Origin: Selenomonas sputigena ATCC 35185
Lineage (GTDB): Bacteria > Bacillota > Negativicutes > Selenomonadales > Selenomonadaceae
DNA: 64,000 nt
Direction: 5' to 3'
Assembly: GCF_000208405.1 (NCBI RefSeq)
Contig: NC_015437.1
Coordinates: 310,001 to 374,000, forward strand
The translations under genes and the position numbers were made by a program. This document shows positions 42,193-61,479 of this stretch, piece by piece. Position 1 is the stretch's first letter. Each line of letters opens with the position of its first letter. The notes under the pieces are model-generated. The model was not told where the DNA came from. It was given only the letters and a program-made list of their open reading frames with translations, and made no database searches.

Positions 42193-43506
42193 ATGGCATT
42201 GGTAGTTAAGAACAACATGATGGCGGTCAACACGCTGAACACGTTGAACAAGAATCAGAGCGCGCTCTCGACGAGCCTCAAGCAGGTTTCGTCCGGCATG
42301 AAGATCAACGGCGCTGTCGATGACGCTTCGGGCTATGCGATTTCCGAGCGCATGCGCGTCCAGATCCGTTCGCTCGATCAGGACAACCAGAACACGCAGA
42401 ACGGCAACAGCATGATGAAGGTTGCTGAGGGCGCTGTTTCCAGCACGGTTGACATCCTCAAGACCCTCAAGGAGAAGGTCATCAACGCTGCGAACGACAC
42501 GAACACGGATGACGACCGTCTGACGATCCAGAAGGAGCTCAACCAGAGCATCGACCAGATCAACGACAACGCGAACATCACGTTCAACGGCAAGTACCTC
42601 GTCGACGGCACGCACAACCAGAAGGTCACGGCTACGACGACGACGTTCACGAACCAGTCGATGAGCACGGCGACGGTAGCTACTTCGGCTATGACGGGTC
42701 TGCTCGATCGCACGGGTCGCAACCTCAACATCCATTCGCAGGATACGATCACGGTTTCGTACGTCAACCAGGGCAAGACGGAGACGACGAGCTTCAAGGT
42801 TTCGACGCAGACTTTCTCGGAGGTCATCAAGCGCCTCTCGGGCACGGGCATTGTCGGCGGCATGGCAACTGATGTCGGTGCTACATCCGTCATCGGCACG
42901 AACGTCGCTGGTGACACGGTCTACACGGCTTCCGGTGAGAGCGCGATCTCGCTCTACGCTGCAGGCACGGGCGTTGGCAAGTCGGTCGGCGGCATCACGT
43001 TCAGCATCACGGATACGCAGGGCAACATCAACAAGTCCGCGAATGCTGTCCTCGACGCTTTCTCCGAGACGGTTCGTGCGCAGGACAACTCGCAGGACAA
43101 CTCGATGAACTTCCAGATCGGCACGCGCGCCAACCAGGCGATCCGCGTCGGCATGACCGATATGCGCGCCCAGGCTCTCGGCCTCCAGGGTTCGGACGGC
43201 TCCACGCTGAACATCAGCACGCGCGACAAGGCGAACGCTGCCATCAACGTTCTTGACAACGCGATCAGCAAGGCACTCGACCAGCAGACGACGATCGGCG
43301 CTGTTCAGAGCCGCTTGAACTACACGAGCCAGAACTTGACGACGGCAAGCGAGAACGTCCAGGCTTCCGAGTCCACCATCCGCGATGCCGACATGGCAAA
43401 GGCGATGACGAACTACACGAAGAACAACGTTCTCATGCAGGCTGCTCAGGCTATGCTCGCTCAGGCGAACCAGTCCAGCTCCGGCGTTCTCAGCCTGCTC
43501 CAGTAA
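42193..43506 (+). CDS. fliC: Flagellin
   Basis: A 437-residue filament subunit. The N-terminal D0/D1 region (MALVVKNNMMAVNTLNTLNK, SSGMKINGAVDDASGYAISE) and the C-terminal region (DMRAQALGLQGSD, AQAMLAQANQSSSGVLSLLQ) are canonical. The centre (about residues 145-290) is Thr/Ser-rich and variable, for example KVTATTTTFTNQSMSTATVA, offering many possible O-glycosylation sites. The codons are strongly biased, as expected for an abundant protein. It is followed by a strong terminator and by the glycosyltransferase island. Confidence 0.98.
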   Translation: MALVVKNNMMAVNTLNTLNKNQSALSTSLKQVSSGMKINGAVDDASGYAISERMRVQIRSLDQDNQNTQNGNSMMKVAEGAVSSTVDILKTLKEKVINAANDTNTDDDRLTIQKELNQSIDQINDNANITFNGKYLVDGTHNQKVTATTTTFTNQSMSTATVATSAMTGLLDRTGRNLNIHSQDTITVSYVNQGKTETTSFKVSTQTFSEVIKRLSGTGIVGGMATDVGATSVIGTNVAGDTVYTASGESAISLYAAGTGVGKSVGGITFSITDTQGNINKSANAVLDAFSETVRAQDNSQDNSMNFQIGTRANQAIRVGMTDMRAQALGLQGSDGSTLNISTRDKANAAINVLDNAISKALDQQTTIGAVQSRLNYTSQNLTTASENVQASESTIRDADMAKAMTNYTKNNVLMQAAQAMLAQANQSSSGVLSLLQ

Positions 43507-43598: not shown

Positions 43599-43638
43599 AT
43601 GAGATAGCTGTTCTATGATAAAGGGGAATTTGTACGAT

Positions 43639-46470
43639 ATGAAAATCTCAGCTTGCTATATCACGAAGAACGAGAGCGCAAATATCGCCGCATCCATCGA
43701 GAGCATAGCGGCGAGCGTCGATGAGATCATCGTCTATGATACCGGCTCTGAGGACGATACGTGCCGTATTGCAGAGGCTTTGCCCAAGGTGAAGCTCTTT
43801 CGCGGCGCGTGGTGCGATGACTTTGCGGTGGCGCGGAACGCGGCGCTTTCTCATGCGACAGGCGACTGGGTCGTATTCCTCGATGCGGATGAGCGCTTTT
43901 CCGAGGCGACGCGCGGAAATTTGTGTACTGTCCTTGAAAAAGCGGAAGGCTTTGATGCGCTCGCCGTGAAGATCGTGAATCTCGACGTCGACGGCGAGAA
44001 GGAAGAGCGCATTGATCATACCTATGTCGTGCGCGCCTTCCGCCGCTTGCCTGAGATCCGCTATGTGGGTCGCATCCATGAGCATATTGAGCGCGAGGAC
44101 GGTGCATTGCGCCTCGGGTTCATTTCCGAAGAGTCCCTTGTGCTGCTTCATACGGGCTATACTGCGAGTCGTGCGAAGGGCAAGGCGGAGCGCAACTTGA
44201 GACTCCTTCTGCAGGAATTGGAGCAGACGCAGAGCCCGGAGGATCTCTACCGCTACCTCGCCGAGGCGTATGAAGGCGTGGGCGATGAGGAGCGAGCGCT
44301 TCACTACGCGCGGCTCGACATCGCAGATGGCCCTCGTCCCGTGCTTTTTGCGAGCCGCTGCTATCGCATGCTGCTCTATACGCTTCCTGAGGGCGAGGAG
44401 CGCACGCGTGTACTGGAAAAGGCACGACGCGATTTTCCGCGCATTCCGGAGTTTCATGCCGAGTATGCCGAGCATTTGGCACGGCAGATGAAGTTCCCTG
44501 AGGCGATTGCGACGATGGAAGAGGCTCTTCGTGCTTATGCTGAGCACGAAGAGGACGGCGAGGCGATGGAGTTCGACGATGCGATGCTCGCCGTGGCGAA
44601 GGAGCGCGCAGCTCTTTGGCAAAAAATCACAGAGAGGGAGAAGACGCTGAGAATTTCGGCGTGTGCGATCGTGCGCGACGAGGCGCATGACATGCCGCGC
44701 TGGCTCCAAAACACGGCGGTCTACAGCGATGAGCGCATCGTTGTAGATACGGGATCGAAGGACGATACGAAGGCGCTGGCCGAGGCGGCGGGCGCACGCG
44801 TCTACGACTATATGTGGCGCGACGACTTTGCGGCGGCGAAGAACGAAGCGCTTTCCCATGCGGCGGGGGACTGGGTCGCCTTCCTTGATGCTGACGAATA
44901 TTTTGCAGAGCCGCAGGCCGTGCGACCGTATCTCGCCGCACTGTCCGTCGAGCAGCCTGAAATCGAGGCGGTCATGCTGGCGATTGCCAATCTCGACGAG
45001 GACGATCATTTTAAGGAGATCCAGCGCTTCCCGACCGTTCGCATTTTCCGTCGCCGTGCGGATATCGCCTTCGCCGGGCGCATCCACGAGGCGGTCGGAA
45101 AGAAGGAAGGTCAGCTCGAAATCAAGCTGGAAAAGAAGCATCTGCTCGTATGCCATCTCGGCTATTCTGCGGGGCGCGTCAGGAAGAAGATTGAGCGGAA
45201 CTTTGCACTCCTGCAGGCGGACATCGAGAAGAACGGCGAGCAGCCCGGGCATTATCGCTATCTGGCGGACTGCTATGTTGCTTTTGGCGATTGGAAAAAG
45301 GCGCTTTACTACGCCCTTTCGGCGCTCGATTCCTCGGTCACTGCCATCGGCAGCGACAGCGATATGTACAGGACAGCGCTGCAGGCGATGCGGGAATGCC
45401 GTATGACGGCAGAAGATATGCTTGCATTAGCGGACAGGGCGTTGGAAGCCTTTCCTGAGCTGCCCGATTTCTATGCAGAGAAAGGCATGATCCTCTCGTC
45501 GATGGGAAGGCTCAAGGATGCGGCGGATTCTTTTGAGCAGGCTTTTTCCCGTGCTGCGCAGGAAGCCGAATCGACATGGCAGGCGTCGCGCTTTGCCGCA
45601 GACGCGCCGGTCGCTTGGCGTCGTCTGGGAGAGATTTATCTTGCGCTTGGCGAGACGACGAAGGCGAAGGCGGCGCTCGCCGCATCTTTGCGTCTCCATC
45701 CGTTCAGTGAGGAAGCACTCGCCGCCTGGCAGAGACTCGTGGGCGTGCCGTGCGGTGAAACCTTGCGCGAGTTCTTCCCGCATACGGCGGAGGCTCTGCG
45801 CTTTCTCGTACGCTGGGCAGCGTCCGCTGGAGAAGCGAAGCTCGCTGCTGATGCGGCAGCGGATTTGGCGGCAATCTTTGGCGAACGTCTGCCTGAGTCG
45901 GATTGCCTCGCTGCTTGGCAGGCAGGGGACTGGCAGAAGATGGCGGGGGTGGCGACGAGATTGGTCGCAGACACGATGCAGGATTTGTTTCTCACACTGC
46001 TGCAGCTGTCGGAACAGAAAGGGAAGGCGCATCTTCCCGTGCAGGAGATGCAGCCGCTCCTGCCTGCGCTGCAGGAGATCGTGCGCTGCTATGCGAAGGA
46101 GGAGCCGCTTACAGAAGAGCTTTGGGAGTCGTATTGGACATTTTTTCCGGCGCTTGCACAGCGCCTGCCGGACGAAGCGCTGCTTCGCTATGTGCGCATC
46201 CTCTCGGCACTCTCGCCGGAGAAGAAGCGTGAGGCGGCGGCAGTCCTCTTGGCGGCGGAGAAATGGCGGGCATCGCTCGAACTCTTGGCTGCCGTGCCGG
46301 CAGATGCCGCCGCAGCTGATGCCGCTTTTTGGCACGATGCAGGTATCGCTTTCTACCGTCTCGGTGATTTCGCGTGTGCGCATGACAGTTTTTCACGGGC
46401 GCGGCAGATGGGATCGCAGGAAAAGGATATCGACGCTTATGAAGCATGGATGAAGGAGGCCGAGGCATGA
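43639..46470 (+). CDS. Large protein with two GT2 glycosyltransferase domains and TPR repeats
   Basis: A 943-residue cytoplasmic protein. Two family 2 glycosyltransferase domains occur at residues about 1-190 (ISACYITKNESANIAASIES, YDTGSEDDTCRIAE, VVFLDADERFSE) and about 335-530 (ISACAIVRDEAHDMPRWLQN, VDTGSKDDTKALAEA, VAFLDADEYFAE). Each has the DxD-like Mn-binding DADE. TPR-like helical repeats follow both, the last part of some 400 residues being all TPR. Such architecture is seen in protein or flagellin glycosyltransferases. I chose the ATG at 43639, where the family starts; an ATG at 43615 lies upstream. It heads the island and ends in a four-base overlap with the next gene. Confidence 0.85.
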   Translation: MKISACYITKNESANIAASIESIAASVDEIIVYDTGSEDDTCRIAEALPKVKLFRGAWCDDFAVARNAALSHATGDWVVFLDADERFSEATRGNLCTVLEKAEGFDALAVKIVNLDVDGEKEERIDHTYVVRAFRRLPEIRYVGRIHEHIEREDGALRLGFISEESLVLLHTGYTASRAKGKAERNLRLLLQELEQTQSPEDLYRYLAEAYEGVGDEERALHYARLDIADGPRPVLFASRCYRMLLYTLPEGEERTRVLEKARRDFPRIPEFHAEYAEHLARQMKFPEAIATMEEALRAYAEHEEDGEAMEFDDAMLAVAKERAALWQKITEREKTLRISACAIVRDEAHDMPRWLQNTAVYSDERIVVDTGSKDDTKALAEAAGARVYDYMWRDDFAAAKNEALSHAAGDWVAFLDADEYFAEPQAVRPYLAALSVEQPEIEAVMLAIANLDEDDHFKEIQRFPTVRIFRRRADIAFAGRIHEAVGKKEGQLEIKLEKKHLLVCHLGYSAGRVRKKIERNFALLQADIEKNGEQPGHYRYLADCYVAFGDWKKALYYALSALDSSVTAIGSDSDMYRTALQAMRECRMTAEDMLALADRALEAFPELPDFYAEKGMILSSMGRLKDAADSFEQAFSRAAQEAESTWQASRFAADAPVAWRRLGEIYLALGETTKAKAALAASLRLHPFSEEALAAWQRLVGVPCGETLREFFPHTAEALRFLVRWAASAGEAKLAADAAADLAAIFGERLPESDCLAAWQAGDWQKMAGVATRLVADTMQDLFLTLLQLSEQKGKAHLPVQEMQPLLPALQEIVRCYAKEEPLTEELWESYWTFFPALAQRLPDEALLRYVRILSALSPEKKREAAAVLLAAEKWRASLELLAAVPADAAAADAAFWHDAGIAFYRLGDFACAHDSFSRARQMGSQEKDIDAYEAWMKEAEA

Positions 46471-48851
46471 AGCTTTCCGCGTGTGTGATCACGAAGAATG
46501 AAGAGGAAAATATTGGCACATGGCTCACCTCGATGAAGAAGATCGCTGACGAGATGATCGTCGTCGATACCGGCTCGACCGATCGCACGGTCGAGATGGC
46601 AAAGGAGGCGGGCGCACGCGTCTTTCATCATGCGTGGCAGAACGATTTTGCCGCCGCGAAGAACTGCGCGTTGGAAAAGGCGAAGGGCGATTGGATTCTC
46701 TTCCTTGACGCGGACGAATATTTCAGTCCGCAGACGATTGCCAAGGTGCGTCCGCTGCTCTTGGAGGTGGAGAAGAGCACGAAGCCCATCGTCGGCGTGA
46801 TCTGCCGCCTCGTCAATATCGACAAGGATCAGGGAAACCGCTTCACGGGCGCGATCTTCCAATTGCGCATCTTCCGCAATAGTCCCGATCTTCGCTACGA
46901 GGGCAAGATCCATGAGCATGTCGTAGATGCTCATCGGGCAGAGCACGAGATGTTCGTGACGCCAAAGCTCGTCATCTTCCACACGGGATATTCACAGCAC
47001 ATCGTGCGCAAGAAGCTGGAGCGCAATCTCGACTTCCTGCGCCAGAAGGAAGAGGCAGAGGGAGAATCGGTGGATGACGCCCTGCATTATATGGATTGTT
47101 ATTACGGCTTGGGCGATTTCGCGAAGGCGGTCGAGTATGCGCAGAAGGCGATTGCGAGCAAGATCGTCTACATGGGGCGCGAAGGCGCGGAATATTGGGG
47201 ACTCGTGCGCGCTCTTCTCGCTCAGAAGCGCCCGAAAGAAGAACTTGTGCCCGTCTTGCAGGAGGCGATGGAGAAGTACCCCGATCTCGCGGAATTCCCC
47301 ATGGAATTTGGGCTTCTGGCATGGGAGGAGCGTGACTACCTGCTGGCGGAGAAGATGTTCCGACGCGGCATGGCGTGCAGGGAGAAGGTGCCTACTTCGC
47401 TGCGTGCGGATAATTCCCTACAGATGTTTCCTTTCGTCTGCCTTTCGCTCGGCAAGATTGAGGCGATGAAGGGAAGACCGGCGGAAGCATTCGACTATTT
47501 CCTTCGTGCGGTCAAGGAATATCCTTACGACACGAGGATCTTCCTTGCGCTCTATGACGCGCTTGCGGGACAGAAGCCGGCAGATGTCATCGCGCTTCTC
47601 GACACGCTCTACGACAAGGAGCGCGATGCGCCGTTCATCACGGCGGCGCTTGCCATGCGCGAACTGACTCACGTCGCACTCTACTACGCACGCTTCTTGC
47701 CGCCCGAGAAGCGCGATGAGGTGCTGCTTTATCGCGCGGCGGGCCGCACGGACGCGGCGGCGGTCGAGCTTTCGGCGCGGCTCAAGAGCTTTTCTTCCCT
47801 GCTCGCCGAGGCGAAGGGCGAGACGGGCGTCCTGCCCGAGGAGGATGCTGTTTCTCTCCTGCTTGCCGAGCCGTACAAAAGGCATTGGCGCAGGAAGGCG
47901 CTGCCTCTCGTCAGCATCATGATCCCGACGTACAACCGCCCGAAGTTCTTCGAGCTTGCGCTCCAAAGCGCCCTGCGGCAGAAGTACGAAAACCTTGAGA
48001 TCATCGTTTGCGACAACGGCACGGACGACCGAACGGAAGCTCTGATTGAAAAGTATTTGGGCGATCCGAGGCTGTGCTATCACCGAAATAGGACGGCGAA
48101 GACGAAGGAGGAGAATTTCGCGCCGTTCGAGCATCTCGCAAAGGGCGAGTACCTGCAGTGGCTGATGGACGACGACATCCTGCTCGACGGCAAGATCGAG
48201 AAGATGATGCAGGCGTTTCGCGAGAATCCTGCGGCGAGACTAGTGACGTCAAGGCGCGCTCAGATTGATGGGGAGGGCAGGGTGCAGCCGAATCCTTGTA
48301 CGGAAGGAGTGCCCGAAAGTGAAGCGGATTATTCCGTATTCGAGGGTGAGGCCGTCGGCAGGGAGACGCTGCTCGGCTGCAGAAACTTCCTCGGAGAGCC
48401 GTCCGCCGTGCTCTTTCGGCGAGCCGATCTCAAGCACCACTATTGGCGCGCCGAGAGCCGTGGCTACAAGACGATTTCCGACGTGGCGATGTGGCTGAAG
48501 CTTCTGGAAGGGGGCGATTGCATCTTCTTTCAGAAGCCCTTGAGCTGCTACCGCCGCCATGAGGAGCAGGAAGGGCAGCAGGCGGAGGTCATTCTCTTGA
48601 GCCGCTTGGAATGGCTGCGGCTCATCAAGGAGTATTTCGAGCGCCGCATATACGTCGCGACGGAAGAAGAGTATGCACAGCCGTTGGAACTTCTCTACGG
48701 CGAGTATCTGGAGGAGCGCGATCGTTTTGATCGTGCGGCGGCAGGAGAAATGTGGCGCGAGTACGAAGAGGCGATGCGCTCCACCCGGCGCACGCTGGAA
48801 AAGATGAAGAAAAAGGAGCGGGCGCATGGCAAGCGAGAAGGAAAAAGATAG
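46467..48851 (+). CDS. Protein with two GT2 domains, one TPR-linked
   Basis: A 794-residue protein whose ATG overlaps the previous stop (ATGA) and is preceded by GGAGG. The N-terminal GT2 domain (LSACVITKNEEENIGTWLTS, VVDTGSTDRTVEMAKEAGAR, DWILFLDADEYFSP) is a paralogue of those in the gene before. TPR helices span about 210-470. A second, different GT2 domain starts near 475: LVSIMIPTYNRPKFFELALQ, IIVCDNGTDDRTEALIEKYL, EYLQWLMDDDILLDGKIEKM. It therefore probably adds two sugars in sequence. The next gene starts inside its last 26 bases. Confidence 0.85.
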   Translation: MKLSACVITKNEEENIGTWLTSMKKIADEMIVVDTGSTDRTVEMAKEAGARVFHHAWQNDFAAAKNCALEKAKGDWILFLDADEYFSPQTIAKVRPLLLEVEKSTKPIVGVICRLVNIDKDQGNRFTGAIFQLRIFRNSPDLRYEGKIHEHVVDAHRAEHEMFVTPKLVIFHTGYSQHIVRKKLERNLDFLRQKEEAEGESVDDALHYMDCYYGLGDFAKAVEYAQKAIASKIVYMGREGAEYWGLVRALLAQKRPKEELVPVLQEAMEKYPDLAEFPMEFGLLAWEERDYLLAEKMFRRGMACREKVPTSLRADNSLQMFPFVCLSLGKIEAMKGRPAEAFDYFLRAVKEYPYDTRIFLALYDALAGQKPADVIALLDTLYDKERDAPFITAALAMRELTHVALYYARFLPPEKRDEVLLYRAAGRTDAAAVELSARLKSFSSLLAEAKGETGVLPEEDAVSLLLAEPYKRHWRRKALPLVSIMIPTYNRPKFFELALQSALRQKYENLEIIVCDNGTDDRTEALIEKYLGDPRLCYHRNRTAKTKEENFAPFEHLAKGEYLQWLMDDDILLDGKIEKMMQAFRENPAARLVTSRRAQIDGEGRVQPNPCTEGVPESEADYSVFEGEAVGRETLLGCRNFLGEPSAVLFRRADLKHHYWRAESRGYKTISDVAMWLKLLEGGDCIFFQKPLSCYRRHEEQEGQQAEVILLSRLEWLRLIKEYFERRIYVATEEEYAQPLELLYGEYLEERDRFDRAAAGEMWREYEEAMRSTRRTLEKMKKKERAHGKREGKR

Positions 48852-51800
48852 GCTGCGCGAGAGGATCGGCGCGTGTCTCGCCGTGCGCGATTTCGACGCA
48901 GCGATGGACGCTGTGCGCGAGCTGGCGAAGGACGAGGCGACCCAGTCGGAGGCGCTCGGCGCCGCTGCGAGCATCCACATCGAGGCGGGCGACTATGAGG
49001 GGGCGGCGCCCTTGGTCGAGGCGCTTCTGCAGAAGGAGCCGCAGTCTGTCTACGGCGCGTTCCTTCGGGCGCGTCTCCTCTTCGCTGAAGGAAAGCTGCT
49101 CTCGGCGCATCATGCGCTCGTATCGCTCTTGCAGCGCGAGGAAGGGATTGCCTCTCTCTACGTCGAGAAGGTCTGCAACCTTCTCGGGCAGACGGCGCGT
49201 GCTATGGGATTGGCAGAAGAAGCAGCAGCCGCCTACGAAAAGGCGGCTGCTGCAGCGGAAACTCCTGAGCTTCGCGCCGTGGCATGGAGCAATGTCCTCT
49301 TCGCGCTGCATTTTCTGCGCGTGCCGCAGCAAGAAGTGTACCGTGCGCACTGCGCTTATGGAGAGCTTTTCCGCGCCGTGACACCGTTTCTCCATCGCTG
49401 TCGGCAAAAGCGGCGCAAGATTCGCATCGGCTATATCTCGCCCGACCTGCGCCATCATGTTGTGCTGCGCTTTGCCGAGGCACTCTTCACGCATTACAAT
49501 GCCGAGCGCTTCGAGGTCTATTGCTATCAAAACGGCCCGGAGGACGAGGAGAGCCGCCGCATCATGCGTCTCGTCGACGCTTGGCGCAATATCTCGCCGC
49601 TCTCGCCGCAGGAGGCGGCACGGCGCATCTACGAGGACGACATAGACGTCCTCGTGGATCTCGCCGGTCATACGCGCGGCACGGGGCTTCCCGTGCTCGT
49701 GCATCGCCCTGCGCCCGTGCAGATGTCAGGCATCGGCTACTTCGCGACGACGGGGCTTCCCGCGGTCGACTATATGATCGGCGATGTATGGCTCGACGGC
49801 GCGCCGGCGGGTATCAAGGAAGCGCCGTTCTTTACGGAGAAGCTGCTCGTTCTCTCACATACGCACCTCTGCTATACGCCCGAGGCGGGCGCACCGCTTG
49901 CGGGCGCTGCGCCATGCCTGCGGAAAGGTTTTGTGACCTTCGGCAGTTTCAATGCTTTCGCCAAGGCTTCGGACGAGACGCTCGCGGCATGGGCGCAGAT
50001 CCTTGCCGCAGTCCCGCAATCGCGTCTGCTCTTGAAATCCGCCGCCTTTTCGAGCGAGGAGGGATGCACCGCCGCACTTGAGCGACTGCAAGCGGCAGGC
50101 ATTGAGCCTGCACGCGTCGAGCTGCGTCCCGATACTCGTGAATACCTGCACGAGTATCATGATGTCGACATCGCGCTCGATACATTCCCCTATCCGGGCG
50201 GCGGTACGACGTTCGATGCGCTCTACATGGGCGTGCCCGTCGTCACGCTCAAGGGAGATTCGCACGGCACGCGTTTCGGCTGCAGCATCCTCGCCAATCT
50301 CGGTTTGGAGGATCTGGCGGCGGCGGATGCGGCAAGCTATGTAGAGACGGCGGCAGCGCTTGCCGAGGATACGGAGCTTCTTGCCGCCCTGCACAGGAAT
50401 CTGCGCCCCATGATGGAAAAGTCACCTTTGATGGACGGCGCTTCTTATGTTGCAGCACTCGAAGTCGGCTATGAAGCGGCGCTCACAGCGCACGATGCGG
50501 CACAGACGGCGATCTCGCCCGAGGAAGCGGCGAGGCTCGCTGTCGCGCTCAAGCGATTCTTTGCGGCGGGAGACCTTCGCCAAGCGCTTGCCGCCGCCGA
50601 CACGCTCCTCGCTGCAGGCAGGGCGGAGCGCGATGTATGGCGTCTGACGGCGGGACTCTACATCGACGCCGGAGAGGGAGAAAATGCCGCGCGTGCAGCA
50701 GGATTGTATATTTCGGGCAAGGATGACGCTTTCGGCCTGTTCCTTCGAGCGCGGGCGGCCTTTTTGCTTGGGCATTGGCAGGCGGCCCGTCTGGATGCGC
50801 AGCGCGCTCTTTCCCTCGGTATGCTCGCACGAGGCGACGAGGTGCTCGCACACAATCTTCTCGCGCGCGTTTCCTGCAGCATGGGAGAGGTCGAGGAGTC
50901 GCTGCGCGAGGAACGGGCGGCCTTCGAGTCTGCCGAGACGCTCGAAGACAAGGCCTCCTCTTGGAGCAACTACCTCTTCGCCCTGCACTACGTCGAGCGC
51001 GAGTCGCAGTTCATGCTCGATGCGGCACGACGCTATGGGGAGCTTTTCAAGGGCGTGCCGCGCATGAAGCGAGCGCCGAAGCGGCGCGGGAAGATCCGCA
51101 TCGGCTATATCTCGCCCGACTTCACGTTCCACATCGTCGCGCTCTTCAGCTTCGCCTTTTTCACGCACTTTGACAAGAGTCGCTTCGAGGTCTTCGGCTA
51201 CTCGCTTGCAGGCGAGAATGCGATGGCGGCGGAGCTTTCTTCTCATGCGTCGGCTTGGCGCTATGTGGGCGGCGGGACTCCTGCAGAGATTGCCGAGAGG
51301 ATCCGCGCCGATGAGATCGACATCCTCTTCGACCTTGCGGGACACAGCGCGAACAACGCGCTTCCCGTGCTCGCGCTTCGTCCTGCACCCGTGCAGATTT
51401 CGGGCATCGGCTACTTCGATACGACGGGGCTTTCCGCGGTCGATTATTTCTTGACGGACGCGTATATCGACCCTATGGGGGAAAACGACGGCTGCTTTAC
51501 GGAGAAGCTCCTGCGCTTGCCCGAGAGTCACCTCTGCTACCGTGCGAGCCGCGCGGGGGAAAAATCGCGCATCGCGCCCTTGCCCGCGCGGGAGAAGGGC
51601 TATATTACGTTCGGCAGCTTCAACAACTTCGCGAAGGTCACGGACCGGGTGTTGCATCTTTGGGCGAAGATCCTCCGTGCCGTGCCGCGCTCGCGCCTCT
51701 TCCTCAAGACGGCGGTCTTCGATGCGTCGGACGGCAGAGAGGAGGCGCTCCGCCGCTTGGAGGCGGCGGGCATCGACCTCGCCCGCATCAGAACCGAAGG

Positions 51801-53877
51801 CCATACGGCGGAGTACCTCGTGGCCTACGGCGAGGTCGACATCGCGCTCGACACATTCCCGTACCCGGGCGGGGGTACGACATGTGACGCGCTCTACATG
51901 GGCGTGCCTGTCGTCACATTGGCGGGGGTGCGCCATGGCGCACGCTTCGGCGCGAGCATCTTGGCGAACCTCGGCCTTGCCGACGCCTGCTGTGCACATA
52001 CGGCGGACGAATATGTGGAGAAGGCATGCGTGCTCGCCGCCGATGTGGCTGCGCTCGCTGTTCTGCGCCGCACCTTGCGCACGCGCATGGAGGCATCTCC
52101 TCTCATGGACGCCGCACGCTACATGCTCCATCTCGAAGCGGCGTATGAGAAGATCTGGGCACACAAGCTCGGCGAGGACAGCAAGAAGCAGTGCAGGAAG
52201 CTCGTGCCCCGTCTGCAAGCCGAGGCGGACGCCGCCTTCGCCGCGCGCGAGTGGCACAGCTTCCTCGCCGCCGCTCATCGCCTCGTCGCGCTGGATGCCG
52301 CATCAAGCCGGCTTTTGATGAGCATGGGATTTGCTTCGCTGCAGTTGGAGGAGCCGAAAAAGGCGCGGGGCTTCCTGGAAATGGCGCTCGAAAAAGCGCA
52401 AGAAGAAAGACCCGAGATCCTGCAGCTTCTCGCCGAAGTGCAGAAGCTCGCGGGCGATCATGCAGCGGCGCTGGCGAGCGCGGAGGAAGCGCAGGCGCGG
52501 ACGGAAAAGACGCGCGAGACACGTCCCTTCCGCCATCGTCTCGCGCTCGCAAAAGCTCATGCCGCCTACATGCTTGCCCGTGCCGACGAGGCGTCGGGAG
52601 CTTACCGCGAAGCCGCAGACCTCGCGGACGACCTTCACGCACGCACGGAAGCGTACAGCTCGCACTTGCTCGCCCTGCACAATACGGCGATCGGACAGGA
52701 GGAGCTTTTTGCCGCGCATCGAGGCTATGAGAAACTTCTTGCGGGCATCGAGCCGCTTGCCGAACGCGCTTGGAAGGATCATGAGAAGATTCGCATCGGC
52801 TATCTGTCGCCTGATTTTCGCTGTCATGTCATGTTTTCCTTTATTTATGGGCTTTTCGTGCGCTTCGACCGCACACGTTTCGAGGTCTATGCTTATTCGC
52901 TCGCGGAGGAGGAGGACGGCTTCACCGAAGCTCTGAAAGAGCACGCGACGGCATGGCGCAATGTCGCGGGGCTTTCCTTTGCGGAGATTGCCGAAAGGAT
53001 TCGTGCAGATGAGATCGATGTCCTCGTCGACCTCGCGGGGCACAGCGCGGGCGGCGCTCTGCCCGTGCTCGCCTATCGACCCGCGCCCGTGCAGGTATCG
53101 GGACTCGGCTACGTCAACACGACGGGGCTTTCGGCGGTCGACTACTTCCTCACGGACGACATCGTCGACCCGCTGGGAAGGCACGACGCCCTCTTCACGG
53201 AAGAGCCTGTATGCTTGACGAGCCAGTTCCTCTACACGGCGAAGAGCGCGGCGCCCGAGCCATCGGGTGCGCCATGCCGGAAAGCGGGGCATGTCGTCTT
53301 CGGCGTTTTCAACCATTGGTACAAGGTCACGGAAGAAATGCTCTTCTGCTGGCGGGAGATCTTGGAGCGCGTGCCGAAGAGCCGCCTGTTCGTCAAGTGT
53401 CAGGAGCTTTTCGCGCCGAAGATGCGAGAAGAGGTACTGCGCCGCATGGCGAAGGCGCAGATCGACATCGAGCGCGTCGACTTGGAGCCTGCGACGAGCG
53501 ACTACATGGAGCGATATAGGACAGTTGACATCGCGCTCGACACGTACCCGTATCCGGGCGGCGGCACGACGTGCGACGCGCTCTACATGGGCATTCCCGT
53601 CGTCACGCGCTATGGCAGGCGGCGCGGCACGCGCTTCGGGCTTTCGCTGCTGAAGAACGTGGGGCTTTCGGAGCTTGCTGCAGCCGATGCGAGGACGTAC
53701 ATTGAGAAGGCCGTGGCGCTCGCTCATGAGGCAGATCTTCTCGATGAACTGCATCGGACGCTCCATGCGCGCTTTATCGCCTCGCCCGTCATGCAGACGC
53801 CGCATTACATGGAGGAGTTGGAGCGCTTCTACTGTATGGCAGTGGAGCGAAAGAAGGAGGAAGAGGGCGGACGATGA
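48826..53877 (+). CDS. Triple O-GlcNAc-transferase-like (GT41) protein with TPR segments
   Basis: A 1683-residue protein with three complete GT41 (SPINDLY/OGT-like) domains, each preceded by about 190 residues of TPR-type helices. The domains begin near residues 199 (KIRIGYISPDLRHHVVLRFA), 755 (KIRIGYISPDFTFHIVALFS) and 1320 (KIRIGYLSPDFRCHVMFSFI). Each repeats DVLVDLAGHT/S, RPAPVQxSGIGY, FGSFNxFAK, and the nucleotide-sugar motif DTFPYPGGGTTxDALYMGVP. OGT enzymes link sugars to Ser or Thr; in Listeria GmaR such an enzyme glycosylates flagellin. Three tandem catalytic units in one chain is unusual. It overlaps its neighbours on both sides. Confidence 0.9.
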   Translation: MASEKEKDRLRERIGACLAVRDFDAAMDAVRELAKDEATQSEALGAAASIHIEAGDYEGAAPLVEALLQKEPQSVYGAFLRARLLFAEGKLLSAHHALVSLLQREEGIASLYVEKVCNLLGQTARAMGLAEEAAAAYEKAAAAAETPELRAVAWSNVLFALHFLRVPQQEVYRAHCAYGELFRAVTPFLHRCRQKRRKIRIGYISPDLRHHVVLRFAEALFTHYNAERFEVYCYQNGPEDEESRRIMRLVDAWRNISPLSPQEAARRIYEDDIDVLVDLAGHTRGTGLPVLVHRPAPVQMSGIGYFATTGLPAVDYMIGDVWLDGAPAGIKEAPFFTEKLLVLSHTHLCYTPEAGAPLAGAAPCLRKGFVTFGSFNAFAKASDETLAAWAQILAAVPQSRLLLKSAAFSSEEGCTAALERLQAAGIEPARVELRPDTREYLHEYHDVDIALDTFPYPGGGTTFDALYMGVPVVTLKGDSHGTRFGCSILANLGLEDLAAADAASYVETAAALAEDTELLAALHRNLRPMMEKSPLMDGASYVAALEVGYEAALTAHDAAQTAISPEEAARLAVALKRFFAAGDLRQALAAADTLLAAGRAERDVWRLTAGLYIDAGEGENAARAAGLYISGKDDAFGLFLRARAAFLLGHWQAARLDAQRALSLGMLARGDEVLAHNLLARVSCSMGEVEESLREERAAFESAETLEDKASSWSNYLFALHYVERESQFMLDAARRYGELFKGVPRMKRAPKRRGKIRIGYISPDFTFHIVALFSFAFFTHFDKSRFEVFGYSLAGENAMAAELSSHASAWRYVGGGTPAEIAERIRADEIDILFDLAGHSANNALPVLALRPAPVQISGIGYFDTTGLSAVDYFLTDAYIDPMGENDGCFTEKLLRLPESHLCYRASRAGEKSRIAPLPAREKGYITFGSFNNFAKVTDRVLHLWAKILRAVPRSRLFLKTAVFDASDGREEALRRLEAAGIDLARIRTEGHTAEYLVAYGEVDIALDTFPYPGGGTTCDALYMGVPVVTLAGVRHGARFGASILANLGLADACCAHTADEYVEKACVLAADVAALAVLRRTLRTRMEASPLMDAARYMLHLEAAYEKIWAHKLGEDSKKQCRKLVPRLQAEADAAFAAREWHSFLAAAHRLVALDAASSRLLMSMGFASLQLEEPKKARGFLEMALEKAQEERPEILQLLAEVQKLAGDHAAALASAEEAQARTEKTRETRPFRHRLALAKAHAAYMLARADEASGAYREAADLADDLHARTEAYSSHLLALHNTAIGQEELFAAHRGYEKLLAGIEPLAERAWKDHEKIRIGYLSPDFRCHVMFSFIYGLFVRFDRTRFEVYAYSLAEEEDGFTEALKEHATAWRNVAGLSFAEIAERIRADEIDVLVDLAGHSAGGALPVLAYRPAPVQVSGLGYVNTTGLSAVDYFLTDDIVDPLGRHDALFTEEPVCLTSQFLYTAKSAAPEPSGAPCRKAGHVVFGVFNHWYKVTEEMLFCWREILERVPKSRLFVKCQELFAPKMREEVLRRMAKAQIDIERVDLEPATSDYMERYRTVDIALDTYPYPGGGTTCDALYMGIPVVTRYGRRRGTRFGLSLLKNVGLSELAAADARTYIEKAVALAHEADLLDELHRTLHARFIASPVMQTPHYMEELERFYCMAVERKKEEEGGR

Positions 53878-55334
53878 AGGATTTTTCCAAGATTACAGAA
53901 GAGCTCGCCGTTTTGCAGGAGCGGACGGATTGGGCGCAGGGGACGGAGCGCATCGGGCAGCTGCTGGAAAAGCACGGGGCGGAGCTTGACCGCGGGGAGA
54001 AGAGCTTCCTGTACGGCCGGCTCGGTTACTTCCTGCGATTCCTTGAGCGCGCGGAGGAATCCGCCGCCGCCTATCGCGAGGCGGTTCTGTACGCACCGTA
54101 TCTCGCACAGCAGAGGAAGCTTTACAGCGATTACCTTTTGATCTGTCACTATCTGCCGCATGTCAGTGATGAGGAGCTGGCTGAGAGCCACTTCTTCTAT
54201 CAGAATTTCTTCCGCCCCAAAGAAGAGCTGCAGCATGTGCGAGACGATCATCGCCGCCACTCGAAAATCCGCATCGGCTATCTCTCGTCGAATTTTAAGA
54301 CGCACATCATGAGCTGCTTCATGATGCAGCTGCTGGCGCTCGCCGACCGCGATCGTTTCGAGGTCTACTGCTATGACCTTGGCGGGCTTTCCGACGGCGC
54401 AGCCGAGCAGATGAAGTCCTTTGGCAACATCTGGCGCAACATCGCTCTGCCCGAGGCGAAGGAGCGTGCGCGGACGATTGCTGCAGACGAGATCGACATC
54501 CTCTTCGACCTCGGCGTTCATACGGACGGCGGACATGGCCTGGCGACGCTCGGCTACAAGGCGGCGCCCGTGCAGATCGCAGGAATCGGCTACATGAGCA
54601 CCTCGGGACTCAAGGCGGTCGACTACTACCTGTCGGATCGCTTTCTTGACCCTCCCGGTAAGGGCGATGCCTATTTCTCGGAAAAACTGCTGCGCCTTTC
54701 GCACTCGCACTTTTGCTACACGCCTTTTGAAGAGATCTTTAAGAGTACGATCGACTGGCAGCCGCACGAAAGGCCGGTGTTTGGCTGCTTCAACAACTCT
54801 GCGAAGATTTCGGAGGAAATGCTGCGCCTCTGGCTGACGCTTCTCAGACGCGTGCCCGGTGCCAAGCTGCTGCTCAAAGCATGGAAGCCCGAGGCGCTGA
54901 TCGAAAAGGCGCTTTCTCTCGGTTATTGTCGTGGGGAGATCGAGGTGCGTCCCATGACGCTCGATTACGTCCACGAGTACATGGACATGGACATTGCGCT
55001 CGACACATTTCCCTATACAGGCGGCGGCACGACATGCGAGGCCATTTACATGGGCGTGCCCGTCGTGACGCTCGCGGGCACGCGCCATGGCACGCGCTTC
55101 GGGCTGTCGCTTCTGGAAAACGTCGGACTCGGCGAGCTTGTGTCGAATACGCCCGAAGAATACGTGGAGAAGGCTGCGGCGCTTGCATCGGACGCGGAAC
55201 TTCTCGCGGCACTGCACAAGAACCTGCGCCCCATGATGCAGCGATCTCCTGTGATGGACGGCAAAAGCTATGTGCGCGAAATCGAAGCGATGTATGAGGA
55301 CGTCTGGCAGGCGTGGCTCGATGGACGAGAATAG
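53874..55334 (+). CDS. Single-domain O-GlcNAc-transferase-like (GT41) protein
   Basis: A 486-residue protein overlapping the triple protein by four bases (ATGA). It has one TPR-like N-terminal segment and one GT41 domain from about residue 130 (KIRIGYLSSNFKTHIMSCFM), with EIDILFDLGVHTDGGHGLAT, APVQIAGIGYMSTSGLKAVD and DTFPYTGGGTTCEAIYMGVP. DLGVHT replaces the DLAGHT of the three domains before it, so its specificity may differ. Together with the upstream gene it gives four OGT-type domains in one operon. Confidence 0.9.
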   Translation: MKDFSKITEELAVLQERTDWAQGTERIGQLLEKHGAELDRGEKSFLYGRLGYFLRFLERAEESAAAYREAVLYAPYLAQQRKLYSDYLLICHYLPHVSDEELAESHFFYQNFFRPKEELQHVRDDHRRHSKIRIGYLSSNFKTHIMSCFMMQLLALADRDRFEVYCYDLGGLSDGAAEQMKSFGNIWRNIALPEAKERARTIAADEIDILFDLGVHTDGGHGLATLGYKAAPVQIAGIGYMSTSGLKAVDYYLSDRFLDPPGKGDAYFSEKLLRLSHSHFCYTPFEEIFKSTIDWQPHERPVFGCFNNSAKISEEMLRLWLTLLRRVPGAKLLLKAWKPEALIEKALSLGYCRGEIEVRPMTLDYVHEYMDMDIALDTFPYTGGGTTCEAIYMGVPVVTLAGTRHGTRFGLSLLENVGLGELVSNTPEEYVEKAAALASDAELLAALHKNLRPMMQRSPVMDGKSYVREIEAMYEDVWQAWLDGRE

Positions 55335-55411: not shown

Positions 55412-56275
55412 TTGTCAAAATGGCATAAGAAGAATGCAAAGACGGCGTCAGTGGATGAGGCGAAGCGCAAGCTTGTCGTACAGATGGCGGATGAAGAGTA
55501 CGGCGAGGCGCTCGGCACGGTCGCAGCGATGATCGAGCAGGGGATCGAGGATTCGGATGCCTTTTATGATGCGTCGTACGCCTATTTCATGAGCGGTGAC
55601 TACGAACGCGCGACACAGTGGGTGGATAACACGCTGCGCCTTGCGCCGCAGCATCTCGGGGCACGCATCCTGCTCGCACGCATTTGCTTCCTGCAGGAAC
55701 GCACCTCGGACGGCCTTGCCATAGCCGAGTTCGTGCTGAAGAATTATGCAGCATCCCTTTCGGCGGAAGACAAGGAAGAACTTGCCGAGATGCTCGATTG
55801 CTACGGCACGACGAAGGAAGACGAGATCCGTGCAGGATATCCCGCCATCGCACGCTTTTTGCAGGTCGACGATGCGGCACCGAAAGCACAGACGGAAGCA
55901 TTTCAGCCGTTGGCACAGCAGGTGCAGCGCATCGAGGCGCAGCCCCTACAGCAGATGCAGCCGGCACAGCAGAGCGCGGCGGACGATGAGAAAGAGGCTA
56001 TGCGACTGGCACAGGAAATTCTTGGGAAGAATATCGCTCTTTTGGAGAAGGTGCATCTTCTGAATTCGTTCGCAGCGGGCTTCTTCCTCGCGGGGTCTTT
56101 CGCTGCAGCGAAGCATCTCTTGAAGCAGGCGCTCGGTCTCGATGCACACGATGAGATGACGCTCAAGAACATGGGCTACACGCTTGTCGCTCTGGGAGAG
56201 CGCGATGCGGCGCTTGAGCTTGCCGCCAGGATGAAGCTGCCCGATTTCGGACTTCTGGCTGCGGTCCGCGGCTGA
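55412..56275 (+). CDS. TPR protein of the glycan island
   Basis: A 287-residue cytoplasmic protein. The first half has TPR-like helices (YGEALGTVAAMIEQGIEDSD, GDYERATQWVDNTLRLAPQH), then a Gln/Ala-rich linker (QVQRIEAQPLQQMQPAQQSA) and a second TPR pair (AGSFAAAKHLLKQALGLDAH). TPRs bind protein partners; it could hold glycosyltransferases or flagellin together. The start is TTG 55412, after AGGAGG. It has its own promoter and is followed by a strong terminator. Confidence 0.8.
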   Translation: MSKWHKKNAKTASVDEAKRKLVVQMADEEYGEALGTVAAMIEQGIEDSDAFYDASYAYFMSGDYERATQWVDNTLRLAPQHLGARILLARICFLQERTSDGLAIAEFVLKNYAASLSAEDKEELAEMLDCYGTTKEDEIRAGYPAIARFLQVDDAAPKAQTEAFQPLAQQVQRIEAQPLQQMQPAQQSAADDEKEAMRLAQEILGKNIALLEKVHLLNSFAAGFFLAGSFAAAKHLLKQALGLDAHDEMTLKNMGYTLVALGERDAALELAARMKLPDFGLLAAVRG

Positions 56276-56291: not shown

Positions 56292-56319
56292 GCCGGGCGT
56301 GCAGGATGCCCGGCTTTTT
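56292..56319 (+). terminator. Terminator after the TPR gene
   Basis: GCCGGGC (56292-56298) with GCCCGGC (56308-56314), nine-base loop, then five T. Confidence 0.9.
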
Positions 56320-56353
56320 CATGACTGCGGCGAGAGATGAGAGGGGGATGCGC

Positions 56354-57595
56354 GTGAGACTGCATCATTATTATATAAAGGCCCTGAGAGAATTCTGGGA
56401 GCAGGGAGTCTTGACGGAAGCCGAGGTGAGGGAGAAGGACGTCCTCGTGATCGGCTTGTCCTATTTCGGGACGGGTGTGATCGCTGCGCTCCAGGAACCA
56501 TTCCTCTCCCGTGGGGCAAGGGTGGACTATGTTCCGCTTTTCAACGAGGATTTCGGTATATCCTCTTCCTTGCAGGAAGTGGCGGATGTCATGGAAGGGA
56601 AGCAGTACGATCTTGTCGTGCTCGCAGAAGGGTTGGAACAAGAGCCGCATTTTGCAAAGAGTGCGGAAGCCGTGGCGGCTTGCTGCCGTATCGGAGGAAA
56701 GATGCTGCTCTTCGTGCAGACGCCCGATGCCCTCGATGAAGAGCGCAGCGTACTGCGCTGCTGGGAGCGCGTCTGGGCATACGACCTGCAGGATATTGCG
56801 AGCATCTTCCCCGGATTCGCCATGCTCTTTCACATGCGCACGGCTCCCGCCCTCCTGCTCGCGGCGAAGCTTGAGAAGCGGCGCGAGGCAAGGCCTTTGC
56901 ATCCGACGGCGTTCAACCTGCGGCTGAAGCGTCATGTCAGCGAGAAGAAGGGACTGCAGGCGGGATTCTTTCACGAGTTCCATGAGCTTGACCGCATCGG
57001 CGTAGAAGAATGCACGGACAAGTGCCGCTATCGCCACAACTACCTGAAGAAGTACGAATTCTTTCTGCGCGATTGGAAGAACAAACCCCTGCGCCTCTTG
57101 GAGCTTGGCGTTTCCAAAGGCGGCAGCGAGCGCATGTGGAAGCGTTTCTTTCCTCAGGCTCAAGTCTATGGTGTCGATATTGATGAGAATTGCCGTGCCT
57201 ATGAAGAAGAGCGCATCAAGATTCGCATTGCTGACCTCTCGCAGGACGATGTGCTCGAAAGTCTCAAGGGGATTCGGCCGCACATCATCATCGACGATGC
57301 CTCGCACTTCTGGAGCCATCAGATCAAGGCGCTCTTCACGCTCTTCCCCGTCTTGCCGAGCGGCGGTGTCTACATCCTTGAGGATATCGAGACATCCTTT
57401 CATCCGCTCGTCTTTTCCAGCGAGTACTGCGATGCGCCGCTCGACGCCTATACGGTGGCGGAGCGAATCACGCGCGTGGCGGCGAGCCGGGTGCCGTGCA
57501 AGGAAGGCCCTTTTGCTGAGGAAATCACGGCGGTCGGTATGGATACGGAACTTGTCGCGACGATGCTTTCGAGCTGCATCTTCATCAAGAGGTAG
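56354..57595 (+). CDS. SAM-dependent methyltransferase with an extra N-terminal domain
   Basis: A 413-residue protein. The C-terminal part (about 245-400) is a class I methyltransferase: LRLLELGVSKGGSERMWKRF is the SAM-binding motif, with VYGVDIDENCRAYEEERIKI, IIIDDASHFWSHQIKALFTL and PSGGVYILEDIETSFHPLVF. This resembles macrocin O-methyltransferase/TylF-type sugar methylases. The N-terminal part (about 1-170) is a second Rossmann-like domain (KDVLVIGLSYFGTGVIAAL) of unknown role. It probably methylates a glycan sugar or the phosphonate. The GTG at 56354 is six bases after GAGGGGG; an ATG at 56348 abuts that site. Confidence 0.8.
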   Translation: MRLHHYYIKALREFWEQGVLTEAEVREKDVLVIGLSYFGTGVIAALQEPFLSRGARVDYVPLFNEDFGISSSLQEVADVMEGKQYDLVVLAEGLEQEPHFAKSAEAVAACCRIGGKMLLFVQTPDALDEERSVLRCWERVWAYDLQDIASIFPGFAMLFHMRTAPALLLAAKLEKRREARPLHPTAFNLRLKRHVSEKKGLQAGFFHEFHELDRIGVEECTDKCRYRHNYLKKYEFFLRDWKNKPLRLLELGVSKGGSERMWKRFFPQAQVYGVDIDENCRAYEEERIKIRIADLSQDDVLESLKGIRPHIIIDDASHFWSHQIKALFTLFPVLPSGGVYILEDIETSFHPLVFSSEYCDAPLDAYTVAERITRVAASRVPCKEGPFAEEITAVGMDTELVATMLSSCIFIKR

Positions 57596-57603
57596 GGGGC
57601 GGC

Positions 57604-59373
57604 ATGAACAAGATCATCGCTGTATCCTTGGTTGCAGACAGTGCCGACATTATCGAGAGTTTCGTGCGCCACACCTTGACGTATGCGGACGAGATGCTCG
57701 TGGTCGATCATGCGGCGATCGACGGCACGGCGAATATCCTGTGCGCCCTTCGAGCGGAGGGGCTTCCCGTTCGTGTCGAGCGCTACGAGTCGGCGGAGCT
57801 TTGCCACGACGAGATCATGACGGCGTTGATGCACAGGGCGTTTGACGAGCGTGGCGCCGACATCGTCGTGCCTGTCGACGCCGATGAGTTCCTCGTTACG
57901 GAGGATGCTGCGAAGCCTTGCCGTTCCGTGCTCCGGCGACTGCGCACGGATATGACCTTCTACGCATGGCATTGGATGTATGAATTGGAGAAGCCGGAAG
58001 AAGATGCAGGAAAGTTTCTGCTCTCGCGTCCCTTGCGCCGGAAGAAGGAGCACGAGATGATGCAGAAGGCCATCGTCGGGCGGGAGGCGGCGCACGCCTA
58101 TCCGTTGCTGGCGCAGGGCACGCACTATCTCTATCGCATGGAAGGGGAAAGGCGTGTGCCTGCTCCGGCGCTTCCCATCAGCTTCCTGCACTTCGCGCAC
58201 TTCCAATGGCGCGGCGCACAGCATACGGCCGTCAAGGTCTTGAACGGTTGGATTGCCAATGCGGCGAAGTATTCGCTGCACACGGCGCGCTGCTATTACT
58301 GGAAGGAGCATTTCGATACGGTCTTTCAAGGCGATGTGCCGCCTGTCGCAATTGCTTCGGACGAGAGCGAGACGGTGCAGGGCTTGATTTTGCCGAAGGG
58401 GCAGATCGAGCTTCGCTATACGGAAGGGGCGACGTTCTCCCCGCTGCAGAGTCTCATGTGCTTGGCGGAACAGTTGGCACAAGATTTCGCCGAAGAGCGC
58501 GTGCGTTCGCGGCGGAAGCTTGTGAGCGTCATCGTGCCGTATTTCGGAAATCTCTCGTTTTGGCATCGCACGCTGGAGAATATCGCCTCGCAGACCTATC
58601 CGTATATGGAGGTCGCCGTGCTCGATTTCGCAGACGGTGCGTCCGATCTGCAGGAGATGCTCGCCGCCCTGCACCTGCCGCACTGCATTGTCCGCGCCGA
58701 CTCTCCCGGATGGGGCGTGCGTCTGGCGCAGACGGCGCGTGGCGAATATATCCAGTGGGTCATGCCCGGCGATCGCCTCTTCCCTGAGAAGATCTTGCAG
58801 ATGGTTACGACACTGGAACTCGACGATGAGCTTTCCTTCGTACTCGCCGACGCCGAGGAGACGGCGACTGCAGAAGGTGCAGATCCCGAGCGATTTGTTT
58901 TTTCCATGCATCGGTCGCATTGCTTCGTCGCAGCAGGGGCATGGCACAGAGCCTATGCGTTGGCTGCGGGGCGCACGCCTATGGGAGGCCTGTCGGGCGT
59001 GCTGCTGCGCCGCCGCGTGCTCGACGCTTGTGCCTGGCTGGAGCTGGCCTTTTTCCGGAAGCGATTCTTCCCTCTGGCGGCTTTCGTCCTCCTCTTTCAG
59101 ATGGAGAAGGATTTCCGTGCAGGAGTCTTCGATGTGCCTCTGCTCTCGCATGAATTCCACGATGAGGGGACGCTGGTCTGGCATCCTGCCGAGTGGGCCT
59201 CGCTGCTCCTTTCGTGCGGGCAGGAGCTTGCTGCACACTCCTTCGTGGAAGCGCGGCAGACTCTGGCGGAGAGAGCGAGGGAAGTGTTCGCACGCGAAGA
59301 GCTTCGCGCTCATGCGGATTTCTCGCGCGCCCGCAGCATATTCGAAGAGCTTTTCGCAGCGCTTCCCGAGTGA
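57604..59373 (+). CDS. Two-domain GT2-family glycosyltransferase
   Basis: A 589-residue protein. Residues about 1-250 resemble a Glyco_tranf_2_4-type domain (KIIAVSLVADSADIIESFVR, VVDHAAIDGTANILCALRA, VVPVDADEFLV), which often holds unusual transferases. From about residue 305 there is a GT2 domain: LVSVIVPYFGNLSFWHRTLE, QTYPYMEVAVLDFADGASDL and EYIQWVMPGDRLFPEKILQM. It follows the methyltransferase by eight bases and likely acts on the same glycan. Confidence 0.82.
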   Translation: MNKIIAVSLVADSADIIESFVRHTLTYADEMLVVDHAAIDGTANILCALRAEGLPVRVERYESAELCHDEIMTALMHRAFDERGADIVVPVDADEFLVTEDAAKPCRSVLRRLRTDMTFYAWHWMYELEKPEEDAGKFLLSRPLRRKKEHEMMQKAIVGREAAHAYPLLAQGTHYLYRMEGERRVPAPALPISFLHFAHFQWRGAQHTAVKVLNGWIANAAKYSLHTARCYYWKEHFDTVFQGDVPPVAIASDESETVQGLILPKGQIELRYTEGATFSPLQSLMCLAEQLAQDFAEERVRSRRKLVSVIVPYFGNLSFWHRTLENIASQTYPYMEVAVLDFADGASDLQEMLAALHLPHCIVRADSPGWGVRLAQTARGEYIQWVMPGDRLFPEKILQMVTTLELDDELSFVLADAEETATAEGADPERFVFSMHRSHCFVAAGAWHRAYALAAGRTPMGGLSGVLLRRRVLDACAWLELAFFRKRFFPLAAFVLLFQMEKDFRAGVFDVPLLSHEFHDEGTLVWHPAEWASLLLSCGQELAAHSFVEARQTLAERAREVFAREELRAHADFSRARSIFEELFAALPE

Positions 59374-60126: not shown

Positions 60127-60127
60127 T

Positions 60128-61429: not shown

Positions 61430-61479
61430 CTGGCACGGAGAGCATCCTTTCGTGCGAGGCTGAAGGGAAGAAAGAGTCC

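Follow-up and report, generated by a model that had tools for sequence, protein, structure and literature searches.

What might a bacterium do with three glycosyltransferase domains of one family on a single polypeptide, and a fourth encoded by the very next gene, all following a flagellin gene? This question is raised by a 64,000-nucleotide stretch of the Selenomonas sputigena ATCC 35185 genome (the window), in which two adjacent genes, P0001 and P0002, encode GT41 proteins. We believe, with a probability of roughly 0.7, that their predicted activity is that of soluble, SPINDLY-related GT41 O-glycosyltransferases that modify the flagellin encoded upstream. The array is composed as follows.

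48826..53877, + strand: P0001, three-domain GT41 protein, 1683 aa (ORF, Pfam/HMM, AlphaFold models)
48826..49395, + strand: P0001 TPR segment 1, residues 1-190 (Pfam TPR_19 above cut-off; helix pairs in the model)
49396..50490, + strand: P0001 GT41 domain D1, residues 191-555 (HMM; catalytic residues kept)
50491..51069, + strand: P0001 TPR-like segment 2, residues 556-748 (weak Pfam TPR; helix pairs, pLDDT ~93)
51070..52161, + strand: P0001 GT41 domain D2, residues 749-1112 (HMM; full SPY-type K/A/Y signature)
52162..52764, + strand: P0001 TPR-like segment 3, residues 1113-1313 (weak Pfam TPR; helix pairs)
52765..53841, + strand: P0001 GT41 domain D3, residues 1314-1672 (HMM; K/R/Y, clade-specific Arg at SPY position 731)
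53874..55334, + strand: P0002, 486 aa, one GT41 domain (D4, in clade D4) after a short TPR-like N-terminus

Open reading frames, Pfam and HMM boundaries agree with the original prediction of three complete tandem domains followed by a fourth protein, and the two genes meet in an ATGA overlap (GGACGATGAAGG). The PF13844 (Glyco_transf_41) model finds P0001 at E=3.4e-124 (415.5 bits against a curated cut-off of 25) through three N-half and three C-half stretches, and P0002 at E=4.3e-37 (128 bits) through two stretches; the HMM boundaries of the domains are residues 191-554, 749-1112 and 1314-1670 of P0001 and 126-480 of P0002. A TPR region precedes every GT41 domain. By HMM, TPR1 lies above the Pfam cut-offs and TPR2, TPR3 and the P0002 segment are weak, although the three P0001 segments are all regular helix pairs in the AlphaFold models. 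Because the four GT41 domains are only 46-55% identical to one another, an echo of sequence assembly is excluded. An assembly artefact or frameshifted concatenation was likewise discarded, given that the genome is complete, the domains are ~50% identical and the sister species has the same gene.

The P0001 chain was modelled in two parts (residues 1-1115, mean pLDDT 92.3; residues 1112-1683, 91.0), which consist of TPR and GT-B modules. Arabidopsis SPINDLY (SPY; 7y4i, 8dtf-8dti), a GT41 O-fucosyltransferase with a TPR solenoid and a GT-B catalytic domain, and the bacterial protein TtOGT (5djs) are the top structure matches of these P0001 models, with VIA-align Z scores of 42-53 over the shared solenoid and GT-B architecture. 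D2 accounts for most of this match list (Z 46.7 and 3.0 A over 539 residues against SPY 8dti; Z 51.0, 2.9 A over 500 residues against TtOGT), while the D3 part aligns with SPY 8dtf at Z 45.7 and 4.4 A over 542 residues, and D1 is well modelled. Sequence matches in the PDB give a corresponding order (SPY 1.3e-83, TtOGT 3.4e-64, human OGT 4.8e-40). Thus, by sequence and predicted structure, the GT41 domains are nearer to SPINDLY than to human OGT.

These comparisons also reveal how the S. sputigena proteins depart from known systems. Their catalytic domains are 37-42% identical to that of SPINDLY, but the plant enzyme has one such domain whereas P0001 has three, and the S. sputigena genes reside in a bacterial flagellin locus. 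XcOGT (2jlb) and TtOGT have the same TPR and GT41 fold, but each carries a single domain; TtOGT is 35-37% identical and has Ile at the position of SPY K689, and XcOGT ranks below both SPY and TtOGT as a match. The UDP-glucose N-glycosyltransferases HMW1C/NGT have the GT41 superfamily fold and a weak sequence match (E ~1e-8), but they form N-linkages and are without a TPR array; the NCBIfam equivalog NF049992 scores 84 bits here against a cut-off of 1000.

The immediate surroundings of the array provide the proposed acceptor and several candidate partners.

42193..43506, + strand: fliC flagellin, 437 aa, proposed acceptor (Pfam Flagellin_N/C)
43615..46470, + strand: SunS-like protein with two GT2 domains and TPR, 951 aa (domain search; conserved neighbour)
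46446..48851, + strand: protein with two GT2 domains and TPR, 801 aa (relatives in other genera form fusions with the GT41 array)
55412..56275, + strand: TPR protein (comes after the GT41 genes in many relatives)
56306..57595, + strand: methyltransferase-like protein of the same island (Pfam; also at locus L125)
57604..59373, + strand: protein with GT2-type domains, same island (Pfam)

P0001 and P0002 come after fliC and the two GT2 genes. To our knowledge, few oral-bacterial flagellins have a published glycan map, and the S. sputigena protein is one of these. The FliC of the window has the right residue at all five positions (T149, S182, T199, T259 and S334) that we take to be the glycosites of the published 437-aa S. 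sputigena flagellin. Papers citing Rath 2018 describe this flagellin as heavily O-glycosylated. The locus offers specific candidates for its transferases, none of which had been assigned as far as we have found.

Precedent exists for such an arrangement. In Caulobacter crescentus, flagellin glycosylation requires the TPR part of FlmG, a soluble TPR-GT-B protein that binds flagellin through this part (PMC7591256). By description, FlmG resembles our proposal of cytoplasmic flagellin glycosylation by a TPR and GT-B protein, although it has a single GT domain and uses pseudaminic acid. GT41 genes of the 'SPINDLY family' beside fliC are already known from enterobacterial flagellin islands (De Maayer and Cowan 2016, PMC4875605). 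Most of those proteins, unlike ours, carry methyltransferase domains, and the parts of that paper available make no mention of tandem GT41 domains in one chain.

The linkage to flagellin is conserved well beyond this strain. The 3+1 set is also present in the sister species, in the order fliC-GT2-GT2-GT41x3-GT41-TPR, and the order fliC-GT2-GT2-GT41(n)-TPR with multi-GT41 proteins recurs across many named genera of Selenomonadaceae, some of which have GT2+GT41 fusions. Among Selenomonadales loci with >8 kb upstream, 21/36 have a flagellin gene upstream on the same strand; none was found in the examined flank of the other 15, which come mostly from uncultured rumen lineages. The position after fliC and GT2 genes is a strong, conserved link, and it fits the multi-site or multi-sugar flagellin modification originally suggested for this locus. 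Nevertheless, if that position were incidental, the targets could be other cytoplasmic or surface proteins, as in eukaryote-like signalling. The 15 loci with no flagellin nearby would fit such a view, as would the two additional GT41 genes found elsewhere in the S. sputigena genome and the independent arrays of up to six GT41 domains that Geobacteraceae carry after type IV pilin genes. We consider it very unlikely, given the gene order repeated over so many genera, the GT2 fusions and the fact that the alternatives to fliC as neighbours likewise encode filament subunits.

Which donor these domains use is less straightforward. The original prediction called them O-GlcNAc-transferase-type domains and proposed assays of UDP-sugar transfer, and a classical version in which UDP-GlcNAc is the donor for all four and only their acceptor sites differ would be consistent with the GT41 fold and with homology to XcOGT and human OGT. 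The flagellin glycans reportedly include GlcNAc-linked forms, and D3, alone among the four, has an Arg that corresponds to R904 of human OGT, as do nearly all D3 orthologues. However, the OGT/SEC-like set Leu866/Arg904/Cys917 is replaced in D1-D4 by Lys (SPY K689) in place of Leu and Tyr (SPY Y744) in place of Cys, both reported to disfavour UDP-GlcNAc (PMC10027727, PMC9715652), and SPY ranks above OGT both by sequence and by structure; this reading seems quite improbable. The opposite extreme, in which all four are SPINDLY-like O-fucosyltransferases using GDP-fucose, benefits from the same two residues, from the complete K689/A731/Y744 set of the SPINDLY clan in D2, from clustered gmd, gmd-like and fcl genes in the genome (C1:41676-44407), and from a paper citing Rath 2018 that calls fucose a major flagellin glycan sugar. 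We nevertheless judge it to be unlikely. By one HMM with a strict cut-off, gmd occurs in only 27/61 sampled family genomes and was missing from near-complete ones such as G018 and G043, whose arrays (L037 and L038) have K689 and Y744 in every domain, and this patchiness weakens GDP-fucose as a universal donor, while rmlD for dTDP-rhamnose is found in 57/61. For the GDP-mannose pathway, TIGR01479 gave a match in 6/12 genomes, of which two exceeded the cut-off. These data argue that Lys689 alone need not signify GDP-fucose, and the donor is perhaps different for each domain. The remaining domains are mixed at the three positions (D1 K/E/Y, D3 K/R/Y, D4 K/E/Y), resembling an 'intermediate' prokaryotic group (PMC10027727), and three of four lack Ala731. 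Furthermore, S496 of SPY is V/I and T747/T748 are G/G in the S. sputigena domains; because Ala substitution of S496 or T748 lowered SPY activity, the donor geometry is probably unlike that of SPY.

It is also appropriate to ask whether only one or two modules are catalytic, with the rest acting as structural or allosteric pseudo-glycosyltransferases. Key residues are lost from D2 in some relatives (L035/L042/L078) and from the second domain in several rumen lineages, which implies that not every array domain need be catalytic. For S. sputigena itself this seems doubtful, since alignment shows the equivalents of SPY H495 (human H558), N661, the essential K665 (human K842), K689, D740, Y744 and T749 (see PMC9715652 and PMC10027727 for the functions of K665, K689 and Y744) in all four domains, with no sign of dead domains. 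In P0001 the K665 equivalents are K380, K937 and K1500; in P0002 it is the Lys of FNNSAK. Moreover, comparison with the sister species gives dN/dS values of 0.162 for D1, 0.114 for D2, 0.139 for D3 and 0.150 for P0002, and thus all four are under purifying selection. One motif had been proposed to mark a different specificity in the fourth domain, DLGVHT instead of DLAGHT. These motifs are indeed present in D4 and D1, but D2 and D3 read DLAGHS, and DLGVHT is unique to D4 of this strain (DLSGHT in the sister species, mostly DLAGHT/S in other D4 orthologues). We rejected it as a specificity motif, since this singleton sits in the N-lobe, away from the nucleotide-sugar-binding residues of the C-lobe.

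Under the flagellin-modifying reading that we prefer, flagellin would be glycosylated in the cytoplasm before export. Each module, complete with its preceding TPR solenoid and GT41 domain, would hold the flagellin chain with the TPR arm while the GT-B cleft moves one sugar onto Ser/Thr. Three linked modules and a separate fourth would enable one complex to serve several sites, perhaps with several donors, and the adjoining TPR-coupled GT2 proteins may add or start further sugars. We infer that flagellin is the substrate, that all four domains are active and that D1/D2 differ from D3/D4 in donor or site.

The tandem array is an old and conserved family trait rather than a freak. We found nothing on tandem GT41 domains in the open-access papers searched, which is not proof of absence, and conserved arrays of this kind appear to be undescribed so far. 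More tentatively, chains of 2-6 GT41 domains might constitute a recurrent group of multi-active-site O-glycosyltransferases that act on filament subunits (in Selenomonadaceae and some Planctomycetota the subunit would be flagellin, in Geobacteraceae perhaps pilin) and whose domains have diverged in donor; for example, a GT41 O-rhamnosyltransferase using dTDP-L-rhamnose might share its chain with a domain that uses GlcNAc or a GDP-sugar. If linked domains do use different donors, they would represent a natural case of several protein-glycosylating specificities in one chain, and would test the SPY/OGT residue code (K689, A731, Y744) as a donor predictor in bacteria. No significant correlation was seen between the number of GT41 domains per locus and either the length of the flagellin or its content of Ser/Thr (p=0.07 and 0.32; n=25). 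Domain trees had been suggested as a means to detect recent duplication. A recent triplication, with D1+D2+D3 as one genus-specific clade, is rejected (AU p=0.006), but D1+D2 alone as such a clade is compatible with the data (p=0.51), and D1/D2 could be younger.

The 3+1 set of GT41 domains is a real and old variant that is probably functional, and it is not an oddity unique to the S. sputigena genome. The window covers positions 310001-374000 of the single contig (2,568,361 bases), and both of the predicted ORFs, which share an ATGA overlap, are present:

48826-53877, plus strand: P0001, 1683 aa, three Pfam PF13844 matches (D1, D2 and D3)
53874-55334, plus strand: P0002, 486 aa, one PF13844 match (D4)

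These matches bear out the proposed tandem of three domains with a separate fourth. Two more GT41 proteins, each single, are encoded elsewhere in this genome.

The gene order fliC-GT2-GT2-GT41(n)-GT41-TPR recurs, whole or minus single pieces, in the sister genome, S. ruminantium, Mitsuokella, Megamonas, Schwartzia, S. noxia, S. flueggei and others, and a same-strand flagellin lies upstream in 21 of the 36 loci with sufficient flank. GT41 is found in 144/151 genomes of the family sample, and open frames of 1000-2147 aa are numerous there. Several of the relatives with this gene order carry GT2-GT41 fusions, and Geobacteraceae, Planctomycetota, Burkholderia relatives and Thiomargarita, all outside the family, have arrays of two to six GT41 domains:

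L040:8909-15325, minus strand: GT2 and GT41 domains in one chain
L039:4306-10302: GT2 and GT41 domains in one chain
L043:6657-11033: GT2 and GT41 domains in one chain
L089: GT2 and GT41 domains in one chain
L102:3091-14382: Geobacteraceae protein, 3763 aa, six GT41 domains
L104:7955-19153: Geobacteraceae protein, 3732 aa, six GT41 domains

Because the two enzyme types share one chain in the fusions (up to 2138 aa in these four loci), they appear to be functionally linked. Two type IV pilin-like ORFs lie a short way upstream of each six-domain gene, whose products are possibly pilin glycosyltransferases.

In a domain tree of many loci, sequences group by array position (SH-aLRT 98 for D1, 97 for D2, 99 for D3 and 98 for D4) with the topology ((D1,D2),(D3,D4)), although the D1 clade includes one D2-position entry. 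Selenomonadaceae sequences form one group (100) versus SPY, Geobacteraceae, Planctomycetota and Thiomargarita. Since labels in two-domain proteins were set after the first FastTree, the unbiased test is provided by three-domain proteins, among which only the second domain of locus L064 breaks the grouping. As for recent duplication of the repeats, a single clade of D1-D3 within the S. sputigena genus was rejected (AU test, p=0.006), whereas D1+D2 alone was not (p=0.51), and thus D1 and D2 could be a younger duplication within the genus. Values of dN/dS against the sister species are 0.16 (D1), 0.11 (D2), 0.14 (D3) and 0.15 (P0002).

Aligned with Arabidopsis SPY, all four domains retain the catalytic-site set H495, N661, K665, K689, D740, Y744 and T749, so that none lacks the key residues. 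In SPY, K689 contacts guanine and Y744 contacts fucose; human OGT has Leu and Cys at these positions and Arg904 at that of Ala731 (PMC10027727, PMC9715652). D2 has the full SPY set (K689, Ala731, Y744), D1 and D4 carry Glu at 731, and D3 carries Arg, which is near-constant throughout its clade; the domains thus seem to differ by clade at a position adjoining the base. S496 is replaced by Val or Ile and T748 by Gly. Given this combination of kept, mixed and changed residues, the domains appear to be SPY-like to intermediate rather than OGT-like, and prokaryotic SPY-like GT41 proteins are already known. The 'O-GlcNAc-transferase-type' label of the original prediction is not supported, as K689 and Y744 occur in all four domains and SPY ranks above human OGT; the label should be dropped pending activity evidence. 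Elsewhere, the second GT41 domain in L035, L042, L078 and rumen loci such as L083, L095 and L112 has lost key residues while the first is intact, which would make these second domains natural pseudo-glycosyltransferase domains inside arrays. In a fifth island GT41 gene of the sister species (L031:17688-19175), the catalytic His (H495) is Gln.

A helical segment of ~190 residues (P0001) or ~125 residues (P0002) precedes each catalytic domain; the first in P0001 exceeds Pfam TPR cut-offs and the remaining segments are weak by profile. AlphaFold models of P0001, built in two parts with alignments of relatives, have helix pairs of TPR type alongside GT-B domains (residues 1-1115, mean pLDDT 92.3, pTM 0.79; residues 1112-1683, 91.0 and 0.89). 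Their nearest solved structures are SPINDLY and TtOGT, with XcOGT and human OGT further down; by sequence, too, SPY leads and TtOGT follows.

Flagellin glycosyltransferases of the TPR-GT type are already known, GmaR among them. FlmG, another such enzyme, binds flagellin through its TPR part and modifies it in the cytoplasm through its GT-B part (PMC7591256). By this analogy, each module should grip nascent or chaperoned flagellin and would attach sugar to its Ser/Thr residues. Linked modules would raise local concentration and serve a number of sites or linkages, and the GT2 domains coupled to TPRs might lengthen chains or begin others. In this scheme we infer flagellin as substrate, the number of active domains and the donors. 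GT41 genes have been described before in enterobacterial flagellin islands (PMC4875605). GT41 chains with several catalytic domains in tandem were not found described in the open-access literature searched, which does not prove their absence.

This genome encodes GDP-fucose enzymes (gmd, gmd-like and fcl) and the dTDP-rhamnose pathway genes rmlB and rmlD; among 61 family genomes, gmd occurs in 27 and rmlD in 57. GDP-fucose is unlikely to be a donor common to all orthologues, because genomes G018 and G043 (completeness 100 and 99) gave no gmd match and yet their arrays (L037 and L038) retain K689 and Y744 in every domain. The donor may be dTDP-rhamnose, UDP-GlcNAc or some other sugar. Rath and colleagues, in 2018, reportedly described the 437-aa flagellin with rhamnose- and GlcNAc-linked O-glycans at T149, S182, T199, T259 and S334. 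Window FliC has T, S, T, T and S at these positions, matching them. Among papers that cite Rath et al. 2018, rhamnose-linked glycans are described, and fucose is given as a major sugar.

The rest of the island continues into L027 of the same genome:

window 59410-64000 and L027:1-6050: a nucleotidyltransferase, a fusion of PEP mutase with a cytidylyltransferase-like domain, and four or more genes of the sulfatase/AlkP superfamily
L027:7510-12939, far end of the island: genes for CDP-glucose 4,6-dehydratase, DegT aminotransferase and GT9 proteins

The first group suggests a phosphonate-type modification near the flagellin glycosylation genes, and the second points to an additional 6-deoxy sugar. 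PEP mutase is also present in the flagellin-GT41 islands L032 (sister genome), L113 and L125. Elsewhere in this genome, at L029:6048-10608, the minus strand carries a second flagellin-like ORF of 278 aa, with a further single GT41 gene and a gene of the sulfatase family nearby.
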